Position numbers and translations under genes: made by a program
Assembly (NCBI GenBank): GCA_030765065.1
Contig: CM060976.1
Location: 62,542,539 to 62,606,538, forward strand
Source of the DNA: Deroplatys truncata
Taxonomy: Eukaryota > Arthropoda > Insecta > Mantodea > Mantidae
Direction of reading: 5' to 3'
DNA: 64,000 nucleotides
The notes under the pieces: generated by a model
Database searches by the model: none
The model's input: the letters and a program-made list of their open reading frames with translations, nothing else
What the model was told of the DNA's origin: nothing
Shown: one piece after another, positions 1 through 61,456 of the stretch
How positions within the stretch are numbered: the first letter of the stretch is position 1
How the letters are laid out: the number at the start of each line of letters is the position of its first letter

Positions 1-362
1 TCTTGCAGATACATATTTAGGTCCTTAGCTGATTCGCATCGTATAAAATACGATTTCAATCGTCCTTCGAATGAAGTTTCGTATTCTTTCATATCGCAGT
101 CCTCCACTGTTGACAGCAACTGATGTTTAGTTGGCTCCAATCTTCTTTTCTTCTGAGGGCTGCTTATTTCACATATATCTTCGTGTCGCTGTCCCTTATA
201 ACAATCTTTGAAGGTTACATTACAATGTTTACATTTGAAGAGCTTCTTGCAGCTCATCTCGTGTCTTCTCTTGTCATAACCTCGGAGGAACTTCTTCCCA
301 CATTTTCCGCATGCATATCCAGTAGCGCTTGGAATAATATCCTTATACGCTGAGCTATTCAT
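1..362 (-). CDS. Mirror copy of protein-primed DNA polymerase B gene, 5' part only
   Basis: This is the reverse-strand mirror of the first ~121 codons of the gene at 4239. The start codon complement is at 360-362, and the frame stays open to the window edge. The translated part is identical in the blocks compared and contains the two N-terminal zinc-finger-like motifs (C-x2-C-x12-H-x3-C). The gene is cut by the window start, so nothing can be said about its polymerase motifs or whether it is intact. The two copies are divergent, with 3.9 kb between their start codons. If the palindrome is real, this element has two head-to-head polymerase genes; if it is an assembly artefact, this copy does not exist. 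Confidence 0.75.
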   Translation of the reverse strand, partial: MNSSAYKDIIPSATGYACGKCGKKFLRGYDKRRHEMSCKKLFKCKHCNVTFKDCYKGQRHEDICEISSPQKKRRLEPTKHQLLSTVEDCDMKEYETSFEGRLKSYFIRCESAKDLNMYLQ

Positions 363-490
363 CTTTATTCTTGATGTAACAACGTATTAATCACTGATCA
401 ATGAAATGTAGACCTCTTCACCTTGACACCACTTTAGAAAGCTGATTATTCTTGGAGAGAACACGATGTTAACACCTCAAGACTAATTAG

Positions 491-529
491 CACAATGAAG
501 TCCAATGCCCTAGATCACCATATTTATAG
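491..529 (-). promoter_or_regulatory. Mirror TATA box for the left polymerase copy
   Basis: This is the exact reverse-strand counterpart of the TATA and initiator region at 4072-4110, with the box at 521-528. The two promoters point away from each other across the motif arrays. Confidence 0.5.
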
Positions 530-1020
530 AGGGAGCACGAACCTTTTAGATCAATCATAAACTCGCTCCATAACCACCTGTATATGATCGCTCAACGTGT
601 ACTAACCCCCCAGCCATATAACCTCAAGTCTAGAGACAGGATGTTTATGACGTCACACCCAGAGACAGGATGTCTAGCAGCATCAAACACGTTTAAACTC
701 GTCTCATAACTACCTGCTTATGCTGTCACACCAGCAAGAGAAGTATTCCCACACGCTCATTCAGACATATATTTCAAATTCAAGCCCACCACCACCATCA
801 CCACCTATTGTACCAAGGTTAATTCAAGCTGTATTATCACAATACTTAAAAGTAAAAGCTTAAAAGGAAACCTAGAAGATTTTCCCCCTTATTTACTTAA
901 TTATTTCATGTTTTTATTCCCTTTTCAATTCTTCCTTTCCATCTTCTCACAGAAAGACCATTACATTTCACTACAATCATGAGAAAAGCAATTTTTCCAG
1001 AGTTACACAGATTCTAAGCT

Positions 1021-2161
1021 TCTAAATCGAACCCGGTAATACTTTTAATAAATGTATTTTAGCTCCCCAATATCAGCATCTACCATTTAATCTTTACTCG
1101 AACCTGATATGATCCATAAGCTTGAAGATATATGAAATCACCCTTCGGGATTCGATCTGAGTACTTTAAAGTAATATTTGTCACGATAACGATATTTAAG
1201 GACTAGATACTCTGTTTGCGTTTACCTTGACATGTTTATCTAAATTAAATTACGAGTTATTAAATTTTTGCAAGTAAATTTCATTGAATCGGTATTCGAA
1301 CCCAGAACACCAGGAACAAGATAATTTATAATAATAGTCTGACATGTTAAACAAAGTTGTATGCAGTTACATCATCGATCTAAGTGATATATTCTAGTGT
1401 ACAGAGGAAAATTAAGAAAGTCATTAAAAGATGGGGAATCGAACCAAGCACAACTGATTGGCAATTATATACGGCATTAATTACCCATCATAGAAGCTAT
1501 CAATAATGCTTTAGTCCACTCCTCTACCTCACTTAGTTCCCGAGATAATGAAAATTTTAAAATTAGGATCGAACCCAGGACGTCATGTATCTAATTACAC
1601 ATCCACAAGATACTACCTAATAACATAAACGCAATAAAGTTTATTTGGCGTCTTTATCTTAATTGGTTTAGGAGTTATTAAATTTATAAGTAAATTCCAT
1701 CGAATCAGTATTCGAACCCAGTACACCAAGAACAAAATAATTTATAATATGAGTTTGGTATGCTTAAAGGTGCTGTATGTAGTTACAGCATCAATTTAAG
1801 TGATATTTTCTAGAGTATAGAGTAAAATTAAGCAAGTCATTAAAAAATCGGGATTCGAACTAGAGACAACTGATTAAAAATTATATACAGTATTAATTAC
1901 GCATTATAACAGCTATCAAACATGCTTTGGTCCATTCCTCTAGCGTTCTTAGTTTCCGAGATAATGAAATTTTTAAAATTAAGGATCGAACCCAGGACAC
2001 CAGGTACCCAAATATACATTTACAAGAAACTACCTAATGACATTAATGTAATAAAGTTTATTTGGCGTCTTTATCTTGATTAGTCTCTGAGTTATTAGAA
2101 GATGAATTTGCATTCACTCCTAGGATTCGAACCCAGGCATCCCGGTCAACTTGCAACAATG
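1021..2161 (-). repeat. Periodic array of tRNA T-arm / B-box-like motifs, left arm
   Basis: This is the mirror image of the array at 2440-3580, on the reverse strand and facing the left polymerase copy. For example, the motif at 2468-2478 reappears at 2123-2133. The one clear arm-to-arm mismatch outside the core (1945/2656) lies in this array. Confidence 0.8.
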
Positions 2162-2265
2162 TCCTAATGACGCGGCGCATTCCAAAGAATTGATTAGTTT
2201 TTATCCCAATGTTCTATCTCTTGTCATTCAGGAGATATAAGCGATTAAACAGTAGATATAATATG

Positions 2266-2335
2266 GGCGGAGCTTGCCGGCATAGATCAAAAGAACTTTA
2301 TCAGATGTCGGCATCTCTCTGTGCGCTCAAACATA
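2266..2335. other. Non-symmetrical core of the palindrome
   Basis: These 70 bp between the arms do not pair with themselves end to end. They include the self-complementary octamer tgccggca near 2276-2283 and a related near-palindrome (gatgtcggcatc) near 2304-2315. The layout resembles the loop of a long hairpin. A covalently closed hairpin end of a linear replicon would give such a centre after replication into a head-to-head dimer. That reading is inference only. Confidence 0.6.
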
Positions 2336-2439
2336 CATATTATCTCTACTGTTTAATCGCTTATATCTCCTGAATGACAAGAGATAGAACATTGGGATAA
2401 AAACTAATCAATTCTTTGGAATGCGCCGCGTCATTAGGA

Positions 2440-3580
2440 CATTGTTGCAAGTTGACCGGGATGCCTGGGTTCGAATCCTAGGAGTGAATGCAAATTCATC
2501 TTCTAATAACTCAGAGACTAATCAAGATAAAGACGCCAAATAAACTTTATTACATTAATGTCATTAGGTAGTTTCTTGTAAATGTATATTTGGGTACCTG
2601 GTGTCCTGGGTTCGATCCTTAATTTTAAAAATTTCATTATCTCGGAAACTAAGAAAGCTAGAGGAATGGACCAAAGCATGTTTGATAGCTGTTATAATGC
2701 GTAATTAATACTGTATATAATTTTTAATCAGTTGTCTCTAGTTCGAATCCCGATTTTTTAATGACTTGCTTAATTTTACTCTATACTCTAGAAAATATCA
2801 CTTAAATTGATGCTGTAACTACATACAGCACCTTTAAGCATACCAAACTCATATTATAAATTATTTTGTTCTTGGTGTACTGGGTTCGAATACTGATTCG
2901 ATGGAATTTACTTATAAATTTAATAACTCCTAAACCAATTAAGATAAAGACGCCAAATAAACTTTATTGCGTTTATGTTATTAGGTAGTATCTTGTGGAT
3001 GTGTAATTAGATACATGACGTCCTGGGTTCGATCCTAATTTTAAAATTTTCATTATCTCGGGAACTAAGTGAGGTAGAGGAGTGGACTAAAGCATTATTG
3101 ATAGCTTCTATGATGGGTAATTAATGCCGTATATAATTGCCAATCAGTTGTGCTTGGTTCGATTCCCCATCTTTTAATGACTTTCTTAATTTTCCTCTGT
3201 ACACTAGAATATATCACTTAGATCGATGATGTAACTGCATACAACTTTGTTTAACATGTCAGACTATTATTATAAATTATCTTGTTCCTGGTGTTCTGGG
3301 TTCGAATACCGATTCAATGAAATTTACTTGCAAAAATTTAATAACTCGTAATTTAATTTAGATAAACATGTCAAGGTAAACGCAAACAGAGTATCTAGTC
3401 CTTAAATATCGTTATCGTGACAAATATTACTTTAAAGTACTCAGATCGAATCCCGAAGGGTGATTTCATATATCTTCAAGCTTATGGATCATATCAGGTT
3501 CGAGTAAAGATTAAATGGTAGATGCTGATATTGGGGAGCTAAAATACATTTATTAAAAGTATTACCGGGTTCGATTTAGA
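2440..3580 (+). repeat. Periodic array of tRNA T-arm / B-box-like motifs, right arm
   Basis: Ten copies of a ggttcgaatcc-like motif, the Pol III B box and tRNA T loop, start at about 2468, 2609, 2740, 2883, 3026, 3156, 3299, 3444, 3497 and 3568. The first eight are spaced 130-145 bp apart. Three modules make a larger tandem unit of 417-418 bp (2504-2920 and 2921-3338, then a diverged third copy). All motifs face the same way, towards the polymerase gene. Some modules keep more tRNA-like sequence: around 2460-2480 a 5-bp T stem can form. I could not fold any module into a full cloverleaf, so these are tRNA-derived or B-box repeats rather than tRNA genes. Confidence 0.8.
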
Positions 3581-4071
3581 AGCTTAGAATCTGTGTAACT
3601 CTGGAAAAATTGCTTTTCTCATGATTGTAGTGAAATGTAATGGTCTTTCTGTGAGAAGATGGAAAGGAAGAATTGAAAAGGGAATAAAAACATGAAATAA
3701 TTAAGTAAATAAGGGGGAAAATCTTCTAGGTTTCCTTTTAAGCTTTTACTTTTAAGTATTGTGATAATACAGCTTGAATTAACCTTGGTACAATAGGTGG
3801 TGATGGTGGTGGTGGGCTTGAATTTGAAATATATGTCTGAATGAGCGTGTGGGAATACTTCTCTTGCTGGTGTGACAGCATAAGCAGGTAGTTATGAGAC
3901 GAGTTTAAACGTGTTTGATGCTGCTAGACATCCTGTCTCTGGGTGTGACGTCATAAACATCCTGTCTCTAGACTTGAGGTTATATGGCTGGGGGGTTAGT
4001 ACACGTTGAGCGATCATATACAGGTGGTTATGGAGCGAGTTTATGATTGATCTAAAAGGTTCGTGCTCCCT

Positions 4072-4110
4072 CTATAAATATGGTGATCTAGGGCATTGGA
4101 CTTCATTGTG
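4072..4110 (+). promoter_or_regulatory. TATA box and possible initiator of the polymerase gene
   Basis: A tataaata box lies at 4073-4080. About 30 bp downstream, at 4102-4108, is ttcattg, close to an arthropod initiator (TCAKTY). This spacing would give a ~130-nt 5' leader before the ATG at 4239. The assignment rests on motif and spacing only. Confidence 0.55.
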
Positions 4111-4238
4111 CTAATTAGTCTTGAGGTGTTAACATCGTGTTCTCTCCAAGAATAATCAGCTTTCTAAAGTGGTGTCAAGGTGAAGAGGTCTACATTTCAT
4201 TGATCAGTGATTAATACGTTGTTACATCAAGAATAAAG

Positions 4239-7200
4239 ATGAATAGCTCAGCGTATAAGGATATTATTCCAAGCGCTACTGGATATGCATGCGGAAAATG
4301 TGGGAAGAAGTTCCTCCGAGGTTATGACAAGAGAAGACACGAGATGAGCTGCAAGAAGCTCTTCAAATGTAAACATTGTAATGTAACCTTCAAAGATTGT
4401 TATAAGGGACAGCGACACGAAGATATATGTGAAATAAGCAGCCCTCAGAAGAAAAGAAGATTGGAGCCAACTAAACATCAGTTGCTGTCAACAGTGGAGG
4501 ACTGCGATATGAAAGAATACGAAACTTCATTCGAAGGACGATTGAAATCGTATTTTATACGATGCGAATCAGCTAAGGACCTAAATATGTATCTGCAAGA
4601 GGCAAAACAACGTATAATCCATGCTGTGCATAAAGAGCTTAGCATTCATAAGAGTGTTAAAATTAATCTGCTGGCTGAGTGTCGATTTGTTAACAGTATT
4701 GGAGAAACCTGTGACAAAACATTTAAAACACGGAATCAAGCTGTTTTCCTGGAAACTGATCTGGACTCAACGATGGAAGTGAAATTCAAGAAATTGGTGA
4801 CTGAAATGGAGGAGTCTCAGCTTAAGGGTAGCAGCTGGGCTTTGCTTGCTGTGGAAGGAGTTCGACTTCGTATCAACAAGTACAACCCGTTACGAGGAAG
4901 TAGCTACATACCACTACCGTCAGCTGTTGAAGCAAGGAAAGCATGTATAAACATCCAGAACTTTAGCGACGAGAAATGTTTCATGTACTCTATACTGGCC
5001 AAATTCATAGGGAAGGATGCACAGCGTGTGAACAAATACAAACAACTTCAAGATAAGTACGACTTCAGCTGTGTTTCCTACCCTACTCCACTTTCTCAAA
5101 TACCTAAATTTGAGAAGTTTAACAATATGTCTATTAACGTGTTTGGGCTGGATGAGAAGCACGAAGTGTATCCGATAAAGGTTGCTGATATTGAACTACC
5201 TGAACATCGCGACCTGCTACTATTGAATGATAGTAGTGGAAAACATCACTACGTATATATAAAGAATTTTGAGAAACTCGTTCGACGCCAGAAAACTAGC
5301 CATAATGGACGGGTTTATACTTGTAAGCGCTGCTTTACACATTTTGATGATCGATATGGACTAAGTGGACAGGAAAAACTGCAAGAACATGTAGCCGTCT
5401 GTATTCAACATGGTGTTGCGAGGGTAGTTATGCCTACCAAGGAGAAATCAATTGTTCAGTTTAAAAATGTTGAGAGGATGCTGAAAGTACCTTATGTCGT
5501 CTATGCTGATTTTGAGAGTATTCTCACTCCATGCCATACGTGTATACCCAATCCTGAAACTTCCTATACAACCCCTTATCAAGAGCACACACCAATGAGC
5601 TTCTGTGTTTACGTGAAGCCTACATCCAGTGTTGAACATCTCGAAACTGGTCTTCCTAAGCAGCCCTATGTGTATCGTGGTGCAGATGCTGCTCAGAAGT
5701 TTATGCTGTACCTGACATATCTTGCAAAAATGATTGATGGCATATACAAATCTACTAAGCCTCTGAAACTTACGGAACAACAGCAAAAGGATTTTGAGTC
5801 TTCTACGGCATGCTACTTGTGTGGAAAAGGCTTTACAGGAGAAAACTACAAAGTACGCGACCATGATCACATCAGCGGTGAATATCGTGGAAGTCTTCAT
5901 AATGAATGTAATTTAGCCTGTAAAACACCTAAATATATACCAGTCTTCATGCATAACCTTAGCGGATATGACTCTCATTTCATTGTTAAGGAGCTGGGTT
6001 GTACAAGTGAACGTGTGGAGGTAATTCCTAACTCTGAAGAAAGCTATATCTCATTCACCAAGTATGTAGGAGATATAAAGCTTCGATTTGTGGATAGCTT
6101 CCGATTCCTCAGTACAAGCTTGGATAAGTTGGTAAAAAATCTAACCTCGTATCCTGAAACTCTAAAGTACTTTGGAGAAGACAAATTGAAGTTGATGACC
6201 CGTAAGGGTGTATTTCCCTATGATTTTGTTACGTCATGGGATGTCCTGAACGAGACCTGCTTGCCTCCTAAGGACTGCTTCTACAATAGATTAAACGAAG
6301 AAGAAATTACTGATACTGACTACGATCATGCTAGAAATGTATGGGAGCTGTTTAATGTGAGAAACCTGGGAGAGTACAGCGATCTCTACTTAACTTCGGA
6401 TGTACTTCTCCTAGCTGATGTCTTTGAGACGTTCAGAGAGCAGACCCTTAAAACACACAAAGTTGATCCTGCCCATTATTTTACCTCTCCAGGTCTTACA
6501 TGGGACGCCATGTTACTGTATACTGAAATTAAACTGGAGCTGTTACAAGATTATGATCAACTACTCATGGTGGAATCAGGTATAAGAGGAGGTTTATGCC
6601 AAGTTTCCCATCGGTATGCTGAGGCTAATAACACTTATATGGATAAGTTTGATCCGTCGAGACCAACCCAATTTATCACATACGAGGACGCTAATAACCA
6701 ATATGGGTGGGCAATGTGTCACGCCCTTCCTTTTGGTGGATTTCAGTGGGTGTCGCCTGAAGAAATCAACTTACAAAGACTAGAAGAAGATGATCCTCAT
6801 GGGTACATATTAGAAGTCGACATAGAGTATCCTGCTGAACTTCACGATCTACACAACGATCTACCTTTCCTGCCAGAGTGTATGAAACCATTGGAATCAT
6901 CTACAAAGAAACTGATACCTCATCTTGGACCTCGAAAGAAGTATGTAGTGCATTACATGGCTTTGAAGCAAGCTCTTAGTCATGGACTACGACTAACAAA
7001 AATCCATCGTGTGCTACAATTCCGACAGTCTCAGTGGTTGAAACCTTATGTGGAATTTAACAACAGGCTACGACAACAAGCTGCAAATGATTTCGAGAAG
7101 GATCTCTACAAGCTCTTTAACAACGCTATGTTTGGAAAAACTATGGAGAACCTGCGTAACCGTATGGATATACGACTGGTGACCAATGAAAAAACTCTAG

Positions 7201-7892
7201 AGAAGCTGATCGCCAAGCCTACGTTTATCGACAGGACGATATATGCTGATAATCTAGCTGCTGTACATATGGCCTCTCGTCAGATTGTATTCAACAAGCC
7301 TATATACATTGGTATGAGTGTGTTGGACATCTCCAAGACATTAATGTATAACTATCATTACGACGTTTTGTTGCCTTATTATGGAGCTGAAAACCTGAAG
7401 CTTATGTATATGGACACTGATTCGTTCATTCATCGTGTAACAACTGAAGATGTGTACCAGGACAAGCTACGTTTTCTTGAGCATCTCGATACATCTGATT
7501 ACCCTGCCAACCATATATGTTACTCTTCTCAGAACAAGAAGGTATTGGGAAAATTTAAAGATGAGGCTAATAGCAAAATCATCCTACGCTTTGTTGGACT
7601 ACGTCCTAAGATGTATGCCTTAGATATTCAAGGGTCAATGATAAAAAAGATTAAAGGTATAAAACGTAGCGCTATTAAGCAGTACATTTCGTTTGACAGC
7701 TATACAGACTGTCTTAAAACCTGTGAAATCATCAGAACACCTATGAATCTGATCCTATCACGAAAGCATGCTCTTGCTACAGTGCAAGTGAATAAAATTG
7801 CATTGACTCCGTTTGATGATAAAAGAATTATTGCTGAGGATGGGATAACGACATATGCGTATGGACATTACGCCATTACAAACAGTGCTTAA
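4239..7892 (+). CDS. Protein-primed family-B DNA polymerase (DNA_pol_B_2 type)
   Basis: A 1217-residue intact frame for a replicative DNA polymerase with 3'-5' exonuclease. In order: two C2HC zinc-finger-like motifs (C18, C21, H34, C38 and C44, C47, H60, C64), a third (C362, C365, H384, C388), Exo I with D424 and E426, an inserted endonuclease VII-like cluster (C525 with VRDHDH at 539-544 and a later HNEC), Exo II H572-N573 to Y577-D578, and Exo III Y717/D721. The polymerase part has motif A D817, motif B K958 with NNAMFGK at 961-967, motif C YMDTDS at 1057-1062, and KMY at 1124-1126. This layout is known from Maverick/Polinton-type and related insect virus polymerases. The ATG at 4239 follows a TATA box at 4073 and precedes all the finger motifs. 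No partner genes of a Polinton are nearby. It is the only undamaged large gene in the window. Confidence 0.92.
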   Translation: MNSSAYKDIIPSATGYACGKCGKKFLRGYDKRRHEMSCKKLFKCKHCNVTFKDCYKGQRHEDICEISSPQKKRRLEPTKHQLLSTVEDCDMKEYETSFEGRLKSYFIRCESAKDLNMYLQEAKQRIIHAVHKELSIHKSVKINLLAECRFVNSIGETCDKTFKTRNQAVFLETDLDSTMEVKFKKLVTEMEESQLKGSSWALLAVEGVRLRINKYNPLRGSSYIPLPSAVEARKACINIQNFSDEKCFMYSILAKFIGKDAQRVNKYKQLQDKYDFSCVSYPTPLSQIPKFEKFNNMSINVFGLDEKHEVYPIKVADIELPEHRDLLLLNDSSGKHHYVYIKNFEKLVRRQKTSHNGRVYTCKRCFTHFDDRYGLSGQEKLQEHVAVCIQHGVARVVMPTKEKSIVQFKNVERMLKVPYVVYADFESILTPCHTCIPNPETSYTTPYQEHTPMSFCVYVKPTSSVEHLETGLPKQPYVYRGADAAQKFMLYLTYLAKMIDGIYKSTKPLKLTEQQQKDFESSTACYLCGKGFTGENYKVRDHDHISGEYRGSLHNECNLACKTPKYIPVFMHNLSGYDSHFIVKELGCTSERVEVIPNSEESYISFTKYVGDIKLRFVDSFRFLSTSLDKLVKNLTSYPETLKYFGEDKLKLMTRKGVFPYDFVTSWDVLNETCLPPKDCFYNRLNEEEITDTDYDHARNVWELFNVRNLGEYSDLYLTSDVLLLADVFETFREQTLKTHKVDPAHYFTSPGLTWDAMLLYTEIKLELLQDYDQLLMVESGIRGGLCQVSHRYAEANNTYMDKFDPSRPTQFITYEDANNQYGWAMCHALPFGGFQWVSPEEINLQRLEEDDPHGYILEVDIEYPAELHDLHNDLPFLPECMKPLESSTKKLIPHLGPRKKYVVHYMALKQALSHGLRLTKIHRVLQFRQSQWLKPYVEFNNRLRQQAANDFEKDLYKLFNNAMFGKTMENLRNRMDIRLVTNEKTLEKLIAKPTFIDRTIYADNLAAVHMASRQIVFNKPIYIGMSVLDISKTLMYNYHYDVLLPYYGAENLKLMYMDTDSFIHRVTTEDVYQDKLRFLEHLDTSDYPANHICYSSQNKKVLGKFKDEANSKIILRFVGLRPKMYALDIQGSMIKKIKGIKRSAIKQYISFDSYTDCLKTCEIIRTPMNLILSRKHALATVQVNKIALTPFDDKRIIAEDGITTYAYGHYAITNSA

Positions 7893-8095
7893 AAGAATGT
7901 AAGTTAAAGATAAAGATTTTCTCGTGAGTCTACAATCTTAAAAAGAAGGTTATCTGTGTGCTGTATATGCAGATAGCTGGCGCCTGATGAAGAAAGAAGA
8001 AGATGGAAGGGAAGGTGGTAACCCTGCCATTAGGAGCAATCCTAGTGCTAGTCTCAAGCCTAGATAAAAGGGGAGAGACATCTATAACGAACTGA

Positions 8096-8101
8096 AATAA
8101 A
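8096..8101 (+). terminator. Polyadenylation signal of the polymerase transcript
   Basis: An aataaa hexamer lies about 200 bp after the polymerase stop codon and before the tandem arrays begin. With the TATA box at 4073 it would define a transcript of about 4 kb. Confidence 0.45.
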
Positions 8102-8269
8102 GGTATGTTGACGCAAAGCTTTTCAGTTTGTAAACCATATACAGTTTATCCCTCTCTGCATCGTACAATAACTGTTTAACATATAAAAATTTGTAAGATT
8201 TAGAAAAAAGTATATAAATTGTTGTAACGCTGGATGAGAAAAGTTTTATAATCGAATTACTCTCTATAT

Positions 8270-9760
8270 TACCATGAGTACCTGTGATACCAGTTGAATT
8301 GCCTGTTAAAATGACTTAAATACCTGTGATACTACTCGAATCAAGTGAAATTACATTAACTAGCTCAGATACGAATTCCTACTCTAAATTAGTACGAGCA
8401 CCTGTGATACTATCAGAATTATCTGTTAAAATGACTCAAATACCATTGATACAACCTGAATCAGCTGCATTTACCTTAAATAGCCGTGATACAAATCTCT
8501 GATAGAAATTATTACGAGCATCTGTGAAACTATGCTGATTATCCAAATACTTATGATATTACCTGAACTATCTGTAAAATACGAAACTAGGCTATAACCA
8601 ACCCCTGGAACCTACCCTCCTGTAATGCTTGCTTAATTACTCTAAGCACCTATGTTACTTGAATTATCCTAAATACCTACGATACCCTCTGAATTACCTT
8701 GAAATATGAAACTATGCTATACCCAACCCTGGAATCTAGCCTCCTGTGATACTACCTGAATTAGCCTAAATACCTACGATACTAGCTGAATTAGCTGTGA
8801 AATCATGCATAGCTATGATGCAGTTAGCCTCTGGAATCTAGCCTCCTGTGATACTAGCTGAATTAGCTTAAATGCTCACGATACTAGCTGAATTGGCTAT
8901 GAAAATGATTTAAATACCTGTGATACTACCCGAATCATGTGAAATTACTTTAACTAGCCCTGATACGAATTCCTGCTCTAAATTAGCACGAGCACCTGTG
9001 ATACTATCTGAATTACCTGTTAAGATGACACAAATACCATTGATACAACCTGAATCATCTGCATTTACCTTAAATAGCTGTGATACAAATCTCTGATCGA
9101 AATTATCAATAATATATGTGAAGCTCTGTCGATTACCTCAAATACTTACGATATTACCTGACCTATCTGTGAAATACGAAGCTAGGTTATAACCAACCCC
9201 TGGAACCTACCCTCCTGTAATGCTTGCTTAATTACTCTAAACACCTATGTTACTTGAATTATCCTAAATACCTACGATACCCTCTGAAATACGAAACTAT
9301 GCTATACCCAACCCTGGAATCTAGCCTCCTGTGATACTTGCTTAATTACTCTAAACACCTATGTTACTTGAATTATCCTAAATACCTACGATACCCTCTG
9401 AATTACCTGTGAAATATGAAACTATGCTATACCCAACCCTGGAATCTAGCCTCCTGTGATACTAGCTGAATTAGCCTAAATACCTACGATACTAGCTGAA
9501 TTACCTGTGAAATACGACACTAAGCTATACCCAACCCTAGAATCTATCCTCTTGTGATACTAGCTGAATTAGCCTAAATACCTACGATACTAGCTGAATT
9601 ATCTGTGAAATTATGCAGAGCCATGATGCAGTTAGCCTCTGGAATCTATTCTGTGTTACTAGATGAATTAGCCTAAATACATACGATACTAGCTGAATTA
9701 CATGTGAAATCATACACTGCTATGATGCAGTCAACCTCTTGCAATACTAGCTGAATTACT
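8270..9760. repeat. Tandem array 1: degenerate GATACTAGCTGAATT-type repeats
   Basis: About 1.5 kb of imperfect repeats built from phrases such as cctgtgatactagctgaat, taaatacctacgatac and a longer block beginning ctggaatctagcctcc. Short phrases recur every ~30-35 bp and are grouped into larger blocks with internal duplications. No open frame runs through it. It begins just after the polymerase 3' region, so it may be part of the same element or a local satellite. Confidence 0.8.
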
Positions 9761-9774
9761 TACCTGTTAGTGTT

Positions 9775-9975
9775 AGTGGGTTAGCTTTTCCCGTTGCAGG
9801 TCACCTTTTTCCCTTTGGTGGTCGCCTTTTTTCCCTTTGCTGGTGACATTTTTTCCCTTTGCTGGTCACGTTTTTCCCTTTGCTAGTCAACTTTTTCCCT
9901 TTGTGGGCCTCCTTTTTCCCTGAGCAGTCACCTTTTTCCCCTGAACGAGTCACCTTTTCCCTGAATAGGTTACGT
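9775..9975. repeat. Tandem array 2: ~22-bp TTTTTCCCTTTGCTGGTCAC repeats
   Basis: About nine imperfect copies of a 20-23 bp unit with a pyrimidine-rich half (tttttccctttg) and a ggtcac-like half. It is unrelated in sequence to the arrays on either side. Confidence 0.85.
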
Positions 9976-10039
9976 GATGGGCATGTCTAGAACATTGACA
10001 TGAAACAGTTTTCCACTAAGTTCACGTCTAAAGTCGCTT

Positions 10040-10935
10040 TCAAGTCTAGCACCTCATATTCCCTATCTCTCCTGTATATAAGTCCATATTCCTACTGCTA
10101 CACTACCTGTCTAGCCTAACACCTCTCCTCCTGTTCCTATACCTCTCATATAAACCATACTCTACTCCTCTAGCTCTGTCTAGCCTAACGCCTCTCTCGT
10201 TTACCTATGACTCTCACATAAACCATACTCTGCTCCTCGACCTCTGTCTAGTCTAACTCCTCTCCTCGTTTTCCTATACCTCTCATATAAACTATACTCT
10301 ACTCCTCAACCTCTGTCTAGCCTAGCACCCCTCTTCCTGTTCCTATACTTCTCATACATATAAACGCATACTCTAAACCTCTGTCTAGTCTAACACCACT
10401 CCCCGTATCCCCTACCTCTCAAAAGCTCATTCCCTCCTGCCCCCCTCTAGCTGAGTATCACTCCTTGGTTTCCTATCTAACCTAACTTTAACACCTGTCT
10501 ATCCTAGCATAGGATCTCTCTCCGTTTTCTCGTCTCTCCTTATAAACACAAACTCAATTCTCCTAACCTAATACCTCTCCTCGTTTTCCTATACTTCTCA
10601 TATAAACCATACTCTACTCCTCGACTTCTGTCTAGCCTAACACCTTTCCTCGTTTTCCTATATCTCTCATATAAACCATGCACTACGTTTCAAGCCCTGT
10701 CTAGCCTAACACATCTCCGCGTTTTCCTATACCGCTCATATAAACCATACATTACTCAGCCTCTGTCTAGCCTAGCACTTCTCATATTCCCCTACCTCTC
10801 TCATATAAGATGCATTCCCTCATTCAACACCGTCTAGCCTAGCGTCAGTCCTCGTATTCCCTATCTCCCCCATATAAACGCATTTTCCTCCTTGAACCGT
10901 CGCATCTAGCCTCGTTTTCCCTATCCTTTCCCATA
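10040..10935. repeat. Tandem array 3: ~69-bp pyrimidine-rich repeats
   Basis: About a dozen copies of a unit containing ctctgtctagcctaacacc, cctcgttttcctata and ctcatataaaccatactc. The phrase gtctag recurs at about 10109, 10179, 10246, 10315 and 10383, giving a 67-70 bp period. The strand shown is strongly C/T biased. Confidence 0.85.
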
Positions 10936-11559
10936 TAAACGCAAAAAACTGCGCCAGCTCTCTCCTATATATCCTACTAACAGGGGATGATGTACCCTCC
11001 CTACCCCTCTCCTAATTAAAGCTCCACCTTCAAGCAATAATAGTTTCTCAAGACTGGAATCCTGAGTGCAAATGTCATGGAGGGCAAGTGTCGTAGATTC
11101 ATCCTCATCACTCTTGTCTATGATTGCCAGTAAACAAACATTAATCAATGAGCGAACCAATACTCGGTATGGAATGAAGAGGGGAGAGGTAAGAATGCCC
11201 TCCCCTCCTCTTGACTGGTGTAAACAACTAGAGATGGGATAGCCCAATATGAGTAGTGATTCAAATATGCAGAGGGAAGGATGAGTGAGGAATGAGTTAT
11301 CTGTAATGTTAACATGTACAACAGGCATGCTATTTATGTAAAACGATTTCTCTGAAGTAGACACTGAGAGCAAATATAAAATTATTGCCTCTATCAAATA
11401 GGAATGTAACATTGCAATTGCTACTACACTATGTGGCACACCTTGAACAACCAAAATCCCGTTGGTGGAAAAGTTATCAAGAAAGAGACCATAATTTTCA
11501 TTTATTTGGTAATTTCAGCAACTACTCTTGCCCAGAAGCATTTGGATACCCGTATAATA

Positions 11560-16285: not shown

Positions 16286-17640
16286 CACTGCCGCTTGTGA
16301 AAATTGCAACACCAAGAAAGAATTTCCCGATTAACTCCAAACTTGGTGGAAGTGTAGGAGAGTGTGCAAGAAATAAGTGATGTGGTTTGGAGAGGGATGG
16401 GGCGCACGTAGGCAAAGCAGAACCCTCTCGTGTCGGTCCGGCAAAGGTCAGTCTTAGGCCCAGTGTAGTCAGTGCAGAGCTGTCAAACAAGGTGGAACAA
16501 TAAACGGAGTGCTAGTATGCCTCGTCGACGCCAAAGGGAGCCATATCGGCATGTGAGTGAGTTCAAACGGGGCAGAATGATCGGTCTCCGGGAAGCGGGT
16601 TTGTCATACTGTGACATTTCGGCTCGTACAGGGCATGCTGCTACGACAGTGATGCGTGTGTGCAAGCAGTGGATAGATGAAGGTCATACGCAGCGAACAG
16701 CCGATACTGGGCCACGGAACATGACCACAACACGGGATGACCGTCATCTTGTCCGCATGGCCATAACGGACCGTACAGCTTCATCCACATTGTTGGCTCG
16801 ACGCTGGAGCACTGCAACAGGTGTGAACTGGTGTGCATCAACGGTTCGTCGCCGTCTGCTGCAGGTTGGACAGGTTGCATGCATGCCATTACGTCGGATT
16901 ACATTGTCCAGAAACCACAAGCTCCTCAGACTGCAATGGGCACGTGAACACCGTCACTGGGGTGCTAAGTGGCGAAATGTAGTCTTTTCGGACGAGTCCC
17001 GCTTCAACGTGTCCTACAGTAATGGCCGCATACGTGTCCAGCGGTACCGTGGTAAGCGCAACCTGGAGGGCTGCATTGTTGAGCGGCATAGCGGACCAAC
17101 ACCAAGTGTGATGGTTTGGGTCGCCATTGGTTACAACAACCGATCTCGCCTCCTAGGAATTGAGGGCACTAAGAATAGCAACCGGTACCTAACGGTGGTT
17201 GTAGAGCCTGAGGTACTCCCCCTGCTTCAGGCACCTCCACAGGTCACATTTCAACAGGGCAATGCCCGACCACATATTGAGAGAAATGTACAAGCCTTCT
17301 TCGAAGAGCGACGGGTACCATTGCTTCCCTGGCCTGCACGTTCGCCTAACATGTCGCCCATCGAACATATCTGGGATATGGTAGGTGGGCACCTGGTGCG
17401 TCACGGTCCTCCAGTAACCAGTGTCACGGATTTGTTGATTCGAATACAAACTGCGTGGAGGGAAATCCCTCAGGAACTTATTCAGAACCTTTTTGATTCA
17501 ATGCCAAGCACTAATTGCTCTAATTGCAGCACATGGAGGCCACACCATATACTGAATATTAGAGCTCAAAGGTAATGTACAGGTTTGAAAAGTTTATCAT
17601 TTGTTACTTGTCATGTACGTAACCTGTGGTATTAAATTCA
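16286..17640 (+). mobile_element. Tc1-like DNA transposon, 3' end degraded
   Basis: The left end appears at 16286 after a TA dinucleotide, with cactgccgcttgtgaaaat and ttgcaacaccaag, a typical Tc1-family terminal sequence. It is followed by a ~230-bp leader and the transposase frame. I could not find a matching inverted end downstream of the gene, so the right terminus is lost or too diverged, and the stated right limit is approximate. Confidence 0.75.
16517..17575 (+). pseudogene. Tc1-family transposase with open frame but mutated catalytic triad
   Basis: A 352-residue frame from the MPRRRQREP start. Two N-terminal helix-turn-helix regions bind the element ends, and an RNase H-fold DDE domain cuts and joins DNA. 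The first catalytic Asp is D159 (FSDESRF) and the Glu is E283 (SPIEHIWD). The second Asp of the usual QQDNARPH is Gly at residue 248 (QQGNARPH). The spacing from that position to E283 is 34 residues, as in DD34E elements. Loss of this metal-binding residue predicts an inactive enzyme although the frame is intact, so the copy is young but dead. An upstream in-frame Met exists at 16472, but the family start fits 16517. Confidence 0.9.
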
Positions 17641-53800: not shown

Positions 53801-55149
53801 AATTTTTAGTTATCTCCTCTGCATTGCTCCCTCCAGGGGTTGATTTCACCAGTTTCTTCGGCATTTGGACGTTACGCCTGCGCCGACCCTTCCCAGGGGG
53901 AATCGCGGTTTCCTCCTTGGTTGCGTTCTGAAGCCCACTGTCACATTGGGTTAACGTCGATGCCGAAGAATGAGACCCCTTCTTCAGTCCTTAGATCCGC
54001 CTTTTTGGAAGTTCAGGCGCAATTCGGGGAATGTCATTTTATATATATTGATGGGTCTAAGATTGATGTTGGAGTAGGGTGTGCCTATATTGTCGATCGA
54101 CATAGTTTTACCTTCCGTTTACCGTGGCAATGCTCGATTTTTACCGCCGAACTTTTTAGTGTTTATCAGTCTCTTTTAAACATCCAGCGGCACTACTTAC
54201 GGCACTGTGTTGTTTGTAACGACTCTCTGAGTGCCCTTCAGAGTTTTAACGCGCTGTACAATTGCCATCCCGTCGTACACGGCATACATGATCTCCTCCA
54301 CTCTCTTGGTACTTCTGGCATCAACGTCTCCTTCGTGTGGATTCCAGGTCATTTGTGCATCTCAGGGAACGAGTCTGCCGACGCCGCTGCCAAATCGGCA
54401 ATTTTATCACCCAGATGTTCTACCTCTGTTGTTCCCTCCACAGATTTGTATGTTATTTTACGTCACCGTATCCTCTCGCTTTGGCGCGATGGTTGACGGC
54501 CCTCCGAGGGAACAAATTGCGGGAGGTTAAACCTCTCCCGTTAGTCTGGGGTACCTCTTCTCGTTGGGAATAGGTAATTTTAGCTCGTTTACGTATCGGT
54601 CGTTGCCTTTTTAGTCATAAGTACCTGCTCAGTGGTGACCCTGTACCACTCTGTGAGCAGTGTGATGCGCCGTTAACGGTGCGTCACATTTTAGCAGAGT
54701 GTCAGGTTTTAGCTCCTTTGCGCGTTTGTGTGTCTCTTCCTGTTGGCATGGCCAACGTTTTGGCAGACGACGCGCATGCTGTAGACTGTCTCTTAGTTTT
54801 ATCAGTGACAGTGGTTTTAGCCGGCGCATTTGATGGGCTGTGCGTCTTTTAGTTTTTTGATTTTCTTTTGTCTGTTTTAATGGTGGCTCTTCTCCCCTGC
54901 GGACGTATGGCGCTCTTGGCGCTTGACTTCTACAGTTCCTGGTACGTCGTTTACTCTTTTATTGTTTTATTTATCATGTTTTAGTGTGGCGTTTTTAGAA
55001 TTTGTGCCGTGTTTTTTTTTTTTTTTTGGTGTTTTGGACTAAGCGGTTTTGTGTGCGTGTTTTAGTTTTTGGATTTTAAATTTTATGCGTTGTAAGGGCA
55101 CTGATGACCTTCGATGTTCAGCGCCCTTAACCCCATATCATCATCATAC
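50815..55149 (+). mobile_element. Degenerate non-LTR retrotransposon (I/Jockey group, with RNase H)
   Basis: 5'-truncated LINE. 50815-51137 is the end of an ORF1 (basic, Ser/Pro-rich tail). 51160-51790 is an apurinic endonuclease with VVCLQETKL, LLLGD followed by a stop, and YSRDHYP where SDH is expected. 52100-53400 is the reverse transcriptase: EPDGIHVLML, FPSVWREATIVPILKPGKD, GVPQGSVLS and FVDDFAIYW. 54030-54400 is RNase H with YIDGSK and FVWIPGHLCISGNESAD. 54651-54704 is a CX2CX7HX4C motif. The 3' UTR ends with gcactgatgacc, gcgcccttaacccc and an (ATC)n tail. Many stops and frame changes, e.g. 52750 and 52902, make it dead. It starts ~25 bp after the KRBA2-like stop codon. Confidence 0.9.
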
Positions 55150-59890: not shown

Positions 59891-60411
59891 TGTTTTAGTA
59901 AAAGTATAGCGCATAGTGAATATTTTATTCTTTTTTATTTTATTATTTACTTTTGACTATATGTTCGAGAAAAATGAAAGGTTATTTTCTGTCTTAGTCT
60001 TTCCTTCTTTTATCTAGACTGTTTTTGCAGTGTAATATGATAAATTCATATTCTTGGATTCTATGCAATTCTTACTTTATACATTTGGTCCCACTAATTA
60101 ACTGTGCACAAACCTCTATAGCAGCCTTTAAGACATGCTTAAAACAATATAAAAGCTACCATTAAAAGTAAATAGAACCTTGGGAAAATTCATAGATTTA
60201 CAAAACATTCCGTCATAAAACGTAAAGGTAAACGTTTACTCATATAGATAGACTTGTAAAATGAATACAGCACGCTGATGCGTAACGAAACGATGTTAAA
60301 TCGACTATACTGGTATTAAATAAGTACGAAGGCTTTCACGGCCGGAGTTAATCGATAAAGCATTAAAATCTTCCGGGCTGGAAGGCCGTGGTCTAAGGGT
60401 AAAATTACTAG

Positions 60412-60453
60412 CACCCGACGTTTCGGTCAACTCTGTGGTTGCCATCTTCAAGA
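60412..60453 (-). ncRNA. Hammerhead-ribozyme-like motif, left pseudo-LTR
   Basis: The same fold on the reverse strand, here with the GAAAC box preserved (gaccgaaacgtcggg) but still ttgaaga instead of ctgaaga. It is better preserved than the right-hand motif. Confidence 0.5.
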
Positions 60454-61074
60454 GTGTAACACCCAGGACAGCTTGATAACGACTGCCGACTAGGCGTTTT
60501 TTTTATAGGGGCGGCCCCACACCCGCCGCCCCCGGTGACGATCATCCTCAGAGGCTACATCGTCTCCCCATGCTGTTAGTTCTAACATGCAACTAGGGGG
60601 GGGTGCTCGGTTAGTAGTGACGTGCTAGTGCGTGGAGAAAGATGTGAGTTAAACATGGTCGGGTTCCGCGGAAGCACCCCGGTTAGTAAGTTAAACTACT
60701 CATGCGAGCATACATGCGAGCGTGCCTGGTTGGGTTTACCGGCGCCAGCCATGGCAGACCCTGCCTGGCGCTCGGTGGTTAGTACGGGTTAGGTTGGGTG
60801 GGATTGACAGGGATGCGTTAAGAGCTACGGCTTAAGATTAAATGGTATGGCGCGGGTGTTAACATCATGCAAGTGATCGTAATGAAAGGTGTGGCGGGAT
60901 TTTACCTTTGGTTGCCGAGCTGCTGCTGCAGTGTTCCTGTGATGGTGGGTGGCCTAGAGATGTTCCGCAATTTATAGCTCACGTCAAGGTCAAAACTGCC
61001 GCAGTGGGTCTGCACTGCAGTCGCTTAACACTTTGTTACCATGGGTCATCGTATCCTATATGAAGACAACGCAA

Positions 61075-61210
61075 GTACTATCTTCTACAAAATTTTATCA
61101 CGCCAGACTTCATAGAGAAGCAATTGAAATTTATAAACACTCCAACAACTTTAATAAAAAGGAAGAAAAGTTTAAGCTCAATCGTACATGGATACCAGCG
61201 ATGACACGTC
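61075..61210 (+). pseudogene. GIY-YIG endonuclease C-terminal remnant of the Penelope-like element
   Basis: The frame encodes RLHREAIEIYKHSNNFNKKE and then LNRTWIPAM, matching my recall of the C-terminal consensus of Penelope endonucleases (REA-EI-KH--NFN---G--L---W-P). The GIY-YIG motif itself and the reverse transcriptase are missing. The fragment is directly followed by the right pseudo-LTR, as expected for the 3' end of such an element. Confidence 0.75.
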
Positions 61211-61314
61211 ACTGCAGACTCACTGCGGCAGTTTTGACCTTGACGTGAGCTATAAATTGCAGAACATCTCTTGCCTAGTCGGCAGTCGTTATCAAGCTGT
61301 CCTGGGTGTTACAC

Positions 61315-61356
61315 TCTTGAAGATGGCAACCACAGAGTTGACCAAAACGTCGGGTG
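61315..61356 (+). ncRNA. Hammerhead-ribozyme-like motif, right pseudo-LTR
   Basis: ttgaaga (core CUGANGA with the first C changed), a bulged 6-bp stem with the loop cacaga, then accaaaacgtc where GAAAC is expected. Penelope-like pseudo-LTRs are known to carry hammerhead motifs. This copy has a changed G12, so cleavage is unlikely. Confidence 0.5.
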
Positions 61357-61456
61357 CTAGTAATTTTACCCTTAGACCACGGCCTTCCAGCCCGGAAGAT
61401 TTTAATGTTCTATCGATATACTGGTATTATTTACATAATAAGAAAACCATTGAAGA

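Follow-up and report, generated by a model that had tools for sequence, protein, structure and literature searches.

A family of 17-kb palindromic transposons coding for a Polinton-type DNA polymerase in the mantis Deroplatys truncata, with halves that are probably equalized during multiplication

Several linear replicons and mobile elements are known to form or carry long inverted repeats. Adenoviruses yield symmetric recombinants, in which a linear replicon gives rise to palindromic molecules when a displaced strand folds back, and poxvirus telomere junctions form a palindrome round a short imperfect loop, the ends of the genome being covalently closed. Foldback elements (FB, Galileo, and Tetris) have very long inverted repeats that contain tandem arrays and enclose a short middle part; to our knowledge they code for no protein-primed polymerase and make target-site duplications of other lengths. 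Parvovirus dimer intermediates are head-to-head concatemers (excerpt of PMC3087758), and in the origin-dependent inverted-repeat amplification (ODIRA) model, inverted dimers form at short interrupted inverted repeats via a closed-loop intermediate (excerpt of PMC4689423). Maverick/Polinton elements, including adintoviruses, are 15 to 20 kb long (excerpt of PMC4028283) and combine rve integrases with 6-bp target-site duplications (excerpt of PMC12220804); in vertebrates, they end in the motif 5'-(AGT)2//(ACT)2-3' (excerpt of PMC8097293). The architecture of the Polinton pPolB polymerase with its vOTU protease domain is described in PMC11071308. Here, we analyze a polymerase-coding palindromic element at one edge of a 64,000-nucleotide stretch of the mantis Deroplatys truncata (hereafter, the window; C2:62542539-62606538 of a 4.29-Gb assembly in 818 contigs). 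The element consists of two mirror halves, each about 8.7 kb long, that flank an asymmetric 70-bp loop (the core), with one gene found per half.

The element resembles Mavericks and Polintons in its family-B DNA polymerase (PolB), which belongs to the same family, in its Maverick-type 6-bp target-site duplication, and in its total length. Its ends, AGTAGG...CCTACT, agree in five of six letters with the vertebrate motif, although here the inverted repeat is the whole half. It is unlike them in that no integrase, capsid, packaging ATPase, or protease gene was found, the inverted repeat spans the whole element, PolB is present twice, and the halves evolve in concert. As far as tested, it therefore fails two defining Maverick features, the integrase and the capsid module. 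With Foldback elements it shares the long inverted repeats, internal tandem sub-repeats, and short middle part, but it codes for PolB and makes a 6-bp duplication, which would set it apart from that group. In adenoviruses and parvoviruses, palindromes arise as by-products or intermediates, whereas the large family described here is inherited in the chromosomes in palindromic form; unlike in poxviruses, the loop is central and the ends are of the integrase type. ODIRA likewise produces a head-to-head junction round a short interrupted inverted repeat, but it amplifies a chromosomal segment once, whereas the palindrome described here is carried to new sites by a transposon family. An earlier note on the window had drawn parallels with protein-primed and parvovirus-like elements, of which the first is apt for the type of polymerase and the second is not. 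Among the literature matches listed, all from open-license PMC papers, there was no palindromic Maverick or snap-back transposon; as far as searched, a whole-element palindrome with jointly rewritten halves is a feature absent from those matches.

Within the window, base p pairs with base 4601-p at all but two of the 2,265 positions compared (1 to 2265), without an indel. The mismatched pairs, 1945/2656 and 2257/2344, lie in the inner arms, and direct base-pair comparison showed the core (2266 to 2335) to be nonpalindromic. An ungapped scan of every axis in the window returned 2300.5 as the sole axis. The comparison thus bore out the near-perfect palindrome at positions 1 to 4600 that the earlier note had described from the window alone, as well as its suggestions that the symmetry continues past base 1 and that the left polymerase copy may be complete. 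In the genome sequence, the left arm (inner part, 1 to 2265, minus strand) runs 6,378 bp further to the left of the window, symmetry reaches half-position 8678 on either side of the axis, and the left gene is indeed complete (C2:62539250-62542900, minus strand). In this copy, the two halves align colinearly between half-positions 36 and 8678 and mismatch at 7 of the 8,643 compared positions. The structure proposed at first was therefore real but its span too small, since positions 1 to 4600 make up about one quarter of a 17,356-bp palindrome (C2:62536161-62553516). Positions 1 to 10978 of the window belong to the element, including the complete right arm (2336 to 10978, plus strand) with its end, ...CCTACT. 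A chance origin of the palindrome is excluded because of its length alone.

To characterize the element across the genome, we searched with the 4.6-kb sequence as the query and scored 33 places from 3,121 first-look candidates. All 33 matched on both strands in mirror-image ranges, a pattern that the query itself favors. Ten of these places, each with 10 kb of sequence to the left and to the right of the axis, served as the main sample: the element stops at one common position, ...CCTACT, in all 10 copies, and a perfect 6-bp duplication flanks each of the 10. For 10 further copies, 701 bp was taken at each expected end region; both ends were found in seven, each with the duplication (7/7), while in three at least one end was missing from the stretch. 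In total, 17 of the 20 probed copies showed both ends, with a perfect 6-bp target-site duplication in 17/17. As a control, we compared the left and right flanks of different copies, which gave no six-base match in 90 comparisons and a single five-base match. Flank comparisons revealed no locus shared between copies; local partial similarity (74 to 87%) linked a few copies to each other and also occurred within three single copies, one source being the tandem array in which copy C1b sits. In the window, the terminus (AGTAGGATATATAGGAGAGAGCTGG, read from outside to inside) occupies positions 10954 to 10978 on the minus strand and is followed by the duplication AACAGG (10979 to 10984), the partner copy of which lies immediately left of C2:62536161. 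Genome-wide, the terminus had 858 forward and 838 reverse matches with at most two mismatches (reversed-pattern control, 0). Because two termini per element are assumed, halving these 1,696 matches gives an estimated family size of about 850 copies.

The first 100 listed terminus places (contigs 1 and 2) comprised 46 plus/minus pairs (92 places) and eight unpaired places, among them the window's own terminus, whose partner lies beyond these 100. Of the 46 pairs, 28 span 16.5 to 18.0 kb. We sampled the midpoints of 12 of these main-size pairs, all on contig 1; in 11 (lengths, 16,527 to 17,711 bp), the axis lay no more than 1.5 bp away from the exact midpoint, and the twelfth (L098) was asymmetric. 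Among the 18 off-size pairs, one was symmetric, 16 had an arm at the midpoint, and one (23,033 bp) had no element sequence there. From this sampling of midpoints we conclude that, in this sample, full-length elements are palindromic as a rule and large deletions are one-sided. The palindrome in the window is one insertion of a dispersed transposon, the inherited form of which is a palindrome of about 17 kb. The earlier proposal of an integrated dimer of a linear polymerase-coding element was accurate insofar as the unit is integrated, polymerase coding, and palindromic; it is not a single frozen dimer, since it belongs to a large transposon family that inherits the palindromic form.

The right PolB gene is an open frame of 1,217 amino acids (4239 to 7892, plus strand), and the left gene is a stop-free open frame of 1,225 codons, the first 120 of which lie in the window (3 to 362, minus strand). 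The best named relatives of the protein were arthropod proteins and the PolB of a Ladona dragonfly adintovirus (46% identity, 93% covered); by sequence, it is an adintovirus/Polinton-type family-B DNA polymerase. A weak C2H2-like N terminus is followed by a terminal-protein-like fold (residues about 98 to 216), from which we infer that PolB is protein primed. PolB also carries exonuclease and polymerase motifs, together with an Endonuclease_7-like insert that scores slightly below the Pfam cutoff. A vOTU region is probable from the sequence; Cys247 and His337 are invariant in this putative region, their assignment being our own, and no OTU structure was among the matches listed for the N-terminal model, a list that one domain may have filled. 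The PolB frame was intact in 14 of 20 halves. An initial case for purifying selection on PolB among the copies had to be weakened once a recount took the postinsertion differences as its control. Relatives of PolB (29 to 47% identity) are also encoded on 19 contigs (L003 to L021) in bacterial and archaeal metagenome-assembled genome records; these contigs are probably eukaryotic or viral and binned with prokaryotes. No palindrome like that of the window was found in 21 relative loci (viral and genome contigs, mostly short ones that could break at palindromes); locus L018 contains an imperfect 257-bp palindrome (80.6%) and locus L005 a 76-bp inverted repeat.

Neither a survey of frames nor tblastn with queries from distant relatives revealed an integrase in the element. 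Apart from PolB, frames longer than 110 codons were absent from the right halves examined (10 copies), and tblastn of 15 proteins of L001 and L002 (including the L001 integrase) against the window gave one 20-residue match (E = 0.61). The lack of long frames is the stronger argument, the tblastn queries being distant relatives. The same surveys, with a comparison of 10 single open frames against Pfam, found no capsid, packaging ATPase, or protease gene. The genome does contain an abundant integrase family (129 places were scored among 9,144 candidates, and the most frequent open frame has 309 codons); a single copy examined in full encodes an rve domain and no other Pfam domain. None of the 14 listed matches to this family on contig 1 lies inside a terminus pair, and this separate family might act in trans on the element. 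At one locus (C72:159931-165772; L107 and L108), two integrase copies, 99.9% identical over 998 bp, stand head to head about 4.7 kb apart; the region around their midpoint yielded no palindrome axis.

To examine how the halves evolve, we aligned 10 copies and measured distances between left (L) and right (R) halves over about 6 kb, excluding the columns of the tip. Because the core is asymmetric and thus labels the sides, halves would group by side if there were no equalization. Instead, the L and R halves were mutual nearest neighbors in 9 of the 10 copies (0.017 to 0.217% apart); halves of different copies were 0.217 to 2.205% apart (median, 1.086%). In these nine copies, 45 of 46 L/R differences were private to one half, and at 84 sites an allele was present on both halves of one copy and absent from the other copies. 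From these two observations, equalization seems to precede insertion and drift to follow it. The tenth copy, C12a (L040, L041), had 108 L/R differences, most of which lie at a distance of 2 to 5.5 kb from the axis. For half of the 108, both alleles also occur in other copies, which suggests a probable exchange with another copy. Six more copies were taken over 2 kb around the axis; in the inner 0.9 to 1.0 kb, L and R were closer to one another than either was to any other copy in 13 of the 16 copies in all (C10a was tied; in C11 and C1b the halves were not closest). Copies C13b, C6, C1d, and C7 were 1.8 to 3.0% from all else and only 0.54 to 0.98% between L and R. The two halves differed in length by no more than 2 bp in 8 of the 10 copies (C12a was off by 502 bp and C4a by 729 bp) and in six of seven further copies (C13a was off by 23 bp), although these same seven differed from each other by up to about 410 bp.

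The region around the axis is exempt from this similarity. The core was present and asymmetric in 10/10 aligned copies, and in six more copies the core with its flanks was 87.6 to 99.2% like that of the window. Complementarity is not maintained within about 45 nucleotides of the axis, leaving an unhomogenized tip zone (2257 to 2344 in the window) that includes the 2257/2344 mismatch. At this site (half-position 44), the pair was mismatched in four of the 10 copies and matched in six. Four of the six further copies had other differences in the zone, while C8c and C7 had none outside the core; just outside the zone, a change in C1d was mirrored on the opposite side. An unpairable tip zone is what a snap-back intermediate would spare.

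Together, these patterns point to homogenization by a snap-back hairpin during multiplication. We consider it probable that this is a palindromic transposon family whose halves are equalized in this way and whose integrase is supplied in trans. PolB would start DNA synthesis from the AGT end with its own terminal-protein domain and copy the entire palindrome. The single strand could then refold into an 8.7-kb hairpin with the core at its tip, in which one half would serve as the template or repair partner for the other, through mispair repair or self-primed copying. Each new double-stranded element would thereby receive two equal halves, and the loop and about 45 nucleotides beside the axis, remaining unpaired, would keep their own sequence. 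A Polinton-type integrase from elsewhere in the genome would insert the linear molecule, using a stagger of 6 bp; from then on, the two halves would diverge independently. Whether the family represents a new class, a "snap-back" transposon, we regard as evenly balanced: in such a class the half-element would be the unit of inheritance, its strand a self-complementary hairpin, with each round rewriting one half from the other and the integrase coming from elsewhere.

The chief rival explanation retains the same family but attributes the likeness of the halves to postinsertion gene conversion from arm to arm, of the kind seen in long chromosomal palindromes. Some observations fit this rival: arm conversion likewise would spare the core and raise L/R identity above that between copies, the mosaic copy C12a shows that some exchange occurs, and early conversion after insertion may stay compatible with the data. 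However, the L/R differences private to one half look as if they arose after insertion and were not erased, one-sided deletions persist (the 16 of 18 off-size elements with an arm at the midpoint), C12a retains a long block of L/R differences, and the four most distant copies still differ between L and R by the amounts given above. The private one-sided changes and persisting one-sided deletions weaken this rival, and we judge it rather unlikely. The earlier note had offered a homogenized inverted duplication as one option; that was right, with homogenization apparently taking place during multiplication and less so within the chromosome after insertion.

The remaining explanations fare worse. 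If the palindrome had arisen once and been amplified as an ordinary transposon with no equalizing mechanism, the shared core of the 10 aligned copies would be accounted for, and a single origin of the palindrome is indeed probable; but the grouping of halves by copy rather than by core side in 9/10 and the 84 sites with copy-private alleles on both halves make the lack of equalization very improbable. A degraded ordinary Maverick/Polinton that lost its integrase and capsid, its palindrome being two side-by-side insertions, would share the Maverick-like PolB, ends, and duplication length seen here, yet one duplication brackets the whole unit in every copy with both ends, and the axis falls at the exact midpoint of 11 of 12 sampled main-size elements, so that this account is scarcely credible. 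Least probable, to the point of being negligible, is an assembly or library artifact from a fold-back read or a contig-end duplication, which the earlier note had also listed. Fold-back reads do occur in nanopore genomic libraries (about 0.55 to 0.6% of reads; PMC12870357), but the window lies inside a 280-Mb contig, away from its end, and the terminus recurs at hundreds of places, with each of the 17 two-ended copies having its own 6-bp duplication, which refutes this option.

The family bears on the interconversion of viruses, linear plasmids, and transposons, as a polymerase-only relative of Mavericks and adintoviruses in which no capsid or integrase gene was found. Chromosomal palindromes of large size are expected to be unstable; nonetheless, a pure 17-kb palindrome is present here at an estimated 850 copies, or about 15 Mb of the genome if all were full length, which some are not. 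The family thus can serve as a naturally replicated system for studying how the similarity of inverted copies is maintained, with many insertions of two halves each, the core as a marker of side, and divergence since insertion as a clock. If the snap-back reading is true, the polymerase gene is carried twice yet evolves as one.

Other features of the element lie in the arms and core. The inner right arm contains an array of GGTTCGA-type motifs (2468 to 3585, plus strand; mirrored in the left arm at 1027 to 2127), which we take to resemble the B box of tRNA genes; 8 of the 10 plus-strand GGTTCGA motifs of the window fall within it, spaced mostly 130 to 145 bp apart when a degenerate motif at 2740 is counted. 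A tandem repeat with a unit of 416 bp (2504 to 3366, plus strand), whose 2.1 copies are about 82% alike, is likewise mirrored in the left arm. A candidate promoter, TATAAATA (4073 to 4080, plus strand), identified by consensus match only, lies about 165 bp upstream of the PolB start codon. Tandem-repeat arrays occupy the outer arm (8253 to 10943); their length differs among copies, mostly by an equal amount on both sides. Hairpin structure of the core alone was discarded as evidence: its own folding was weak (z = -1.98; 8 of 200 shuffles equally good), and its alignment score was reached by 21 of 300 simple shuffles. A template-switch origin of the 2257/2344 mismatch was dropped because the site is variable between copies. 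One of the 11 main-size elements with a central axis (L099; C1:93400784-93400984) lacks the usual core and has a different, shorter loop.

Elsewhere in the window, a Tc1-like transposase frame (16472 to 17575; 367 amino acids) and an RNase H-domain frame (53840 to 54496; 218 amino acids) were detected, as fits a repeat-rich animal genome. The named relatives of the Tc1 transposase come almost exclusively from arthropods (spiders, cockroaches, and a stick insect), with one match labeled Salmonella. A 145-bp inverted repeat, 97.9% identical, surrounds about 0.8 kb at positions 60351 to 61417.

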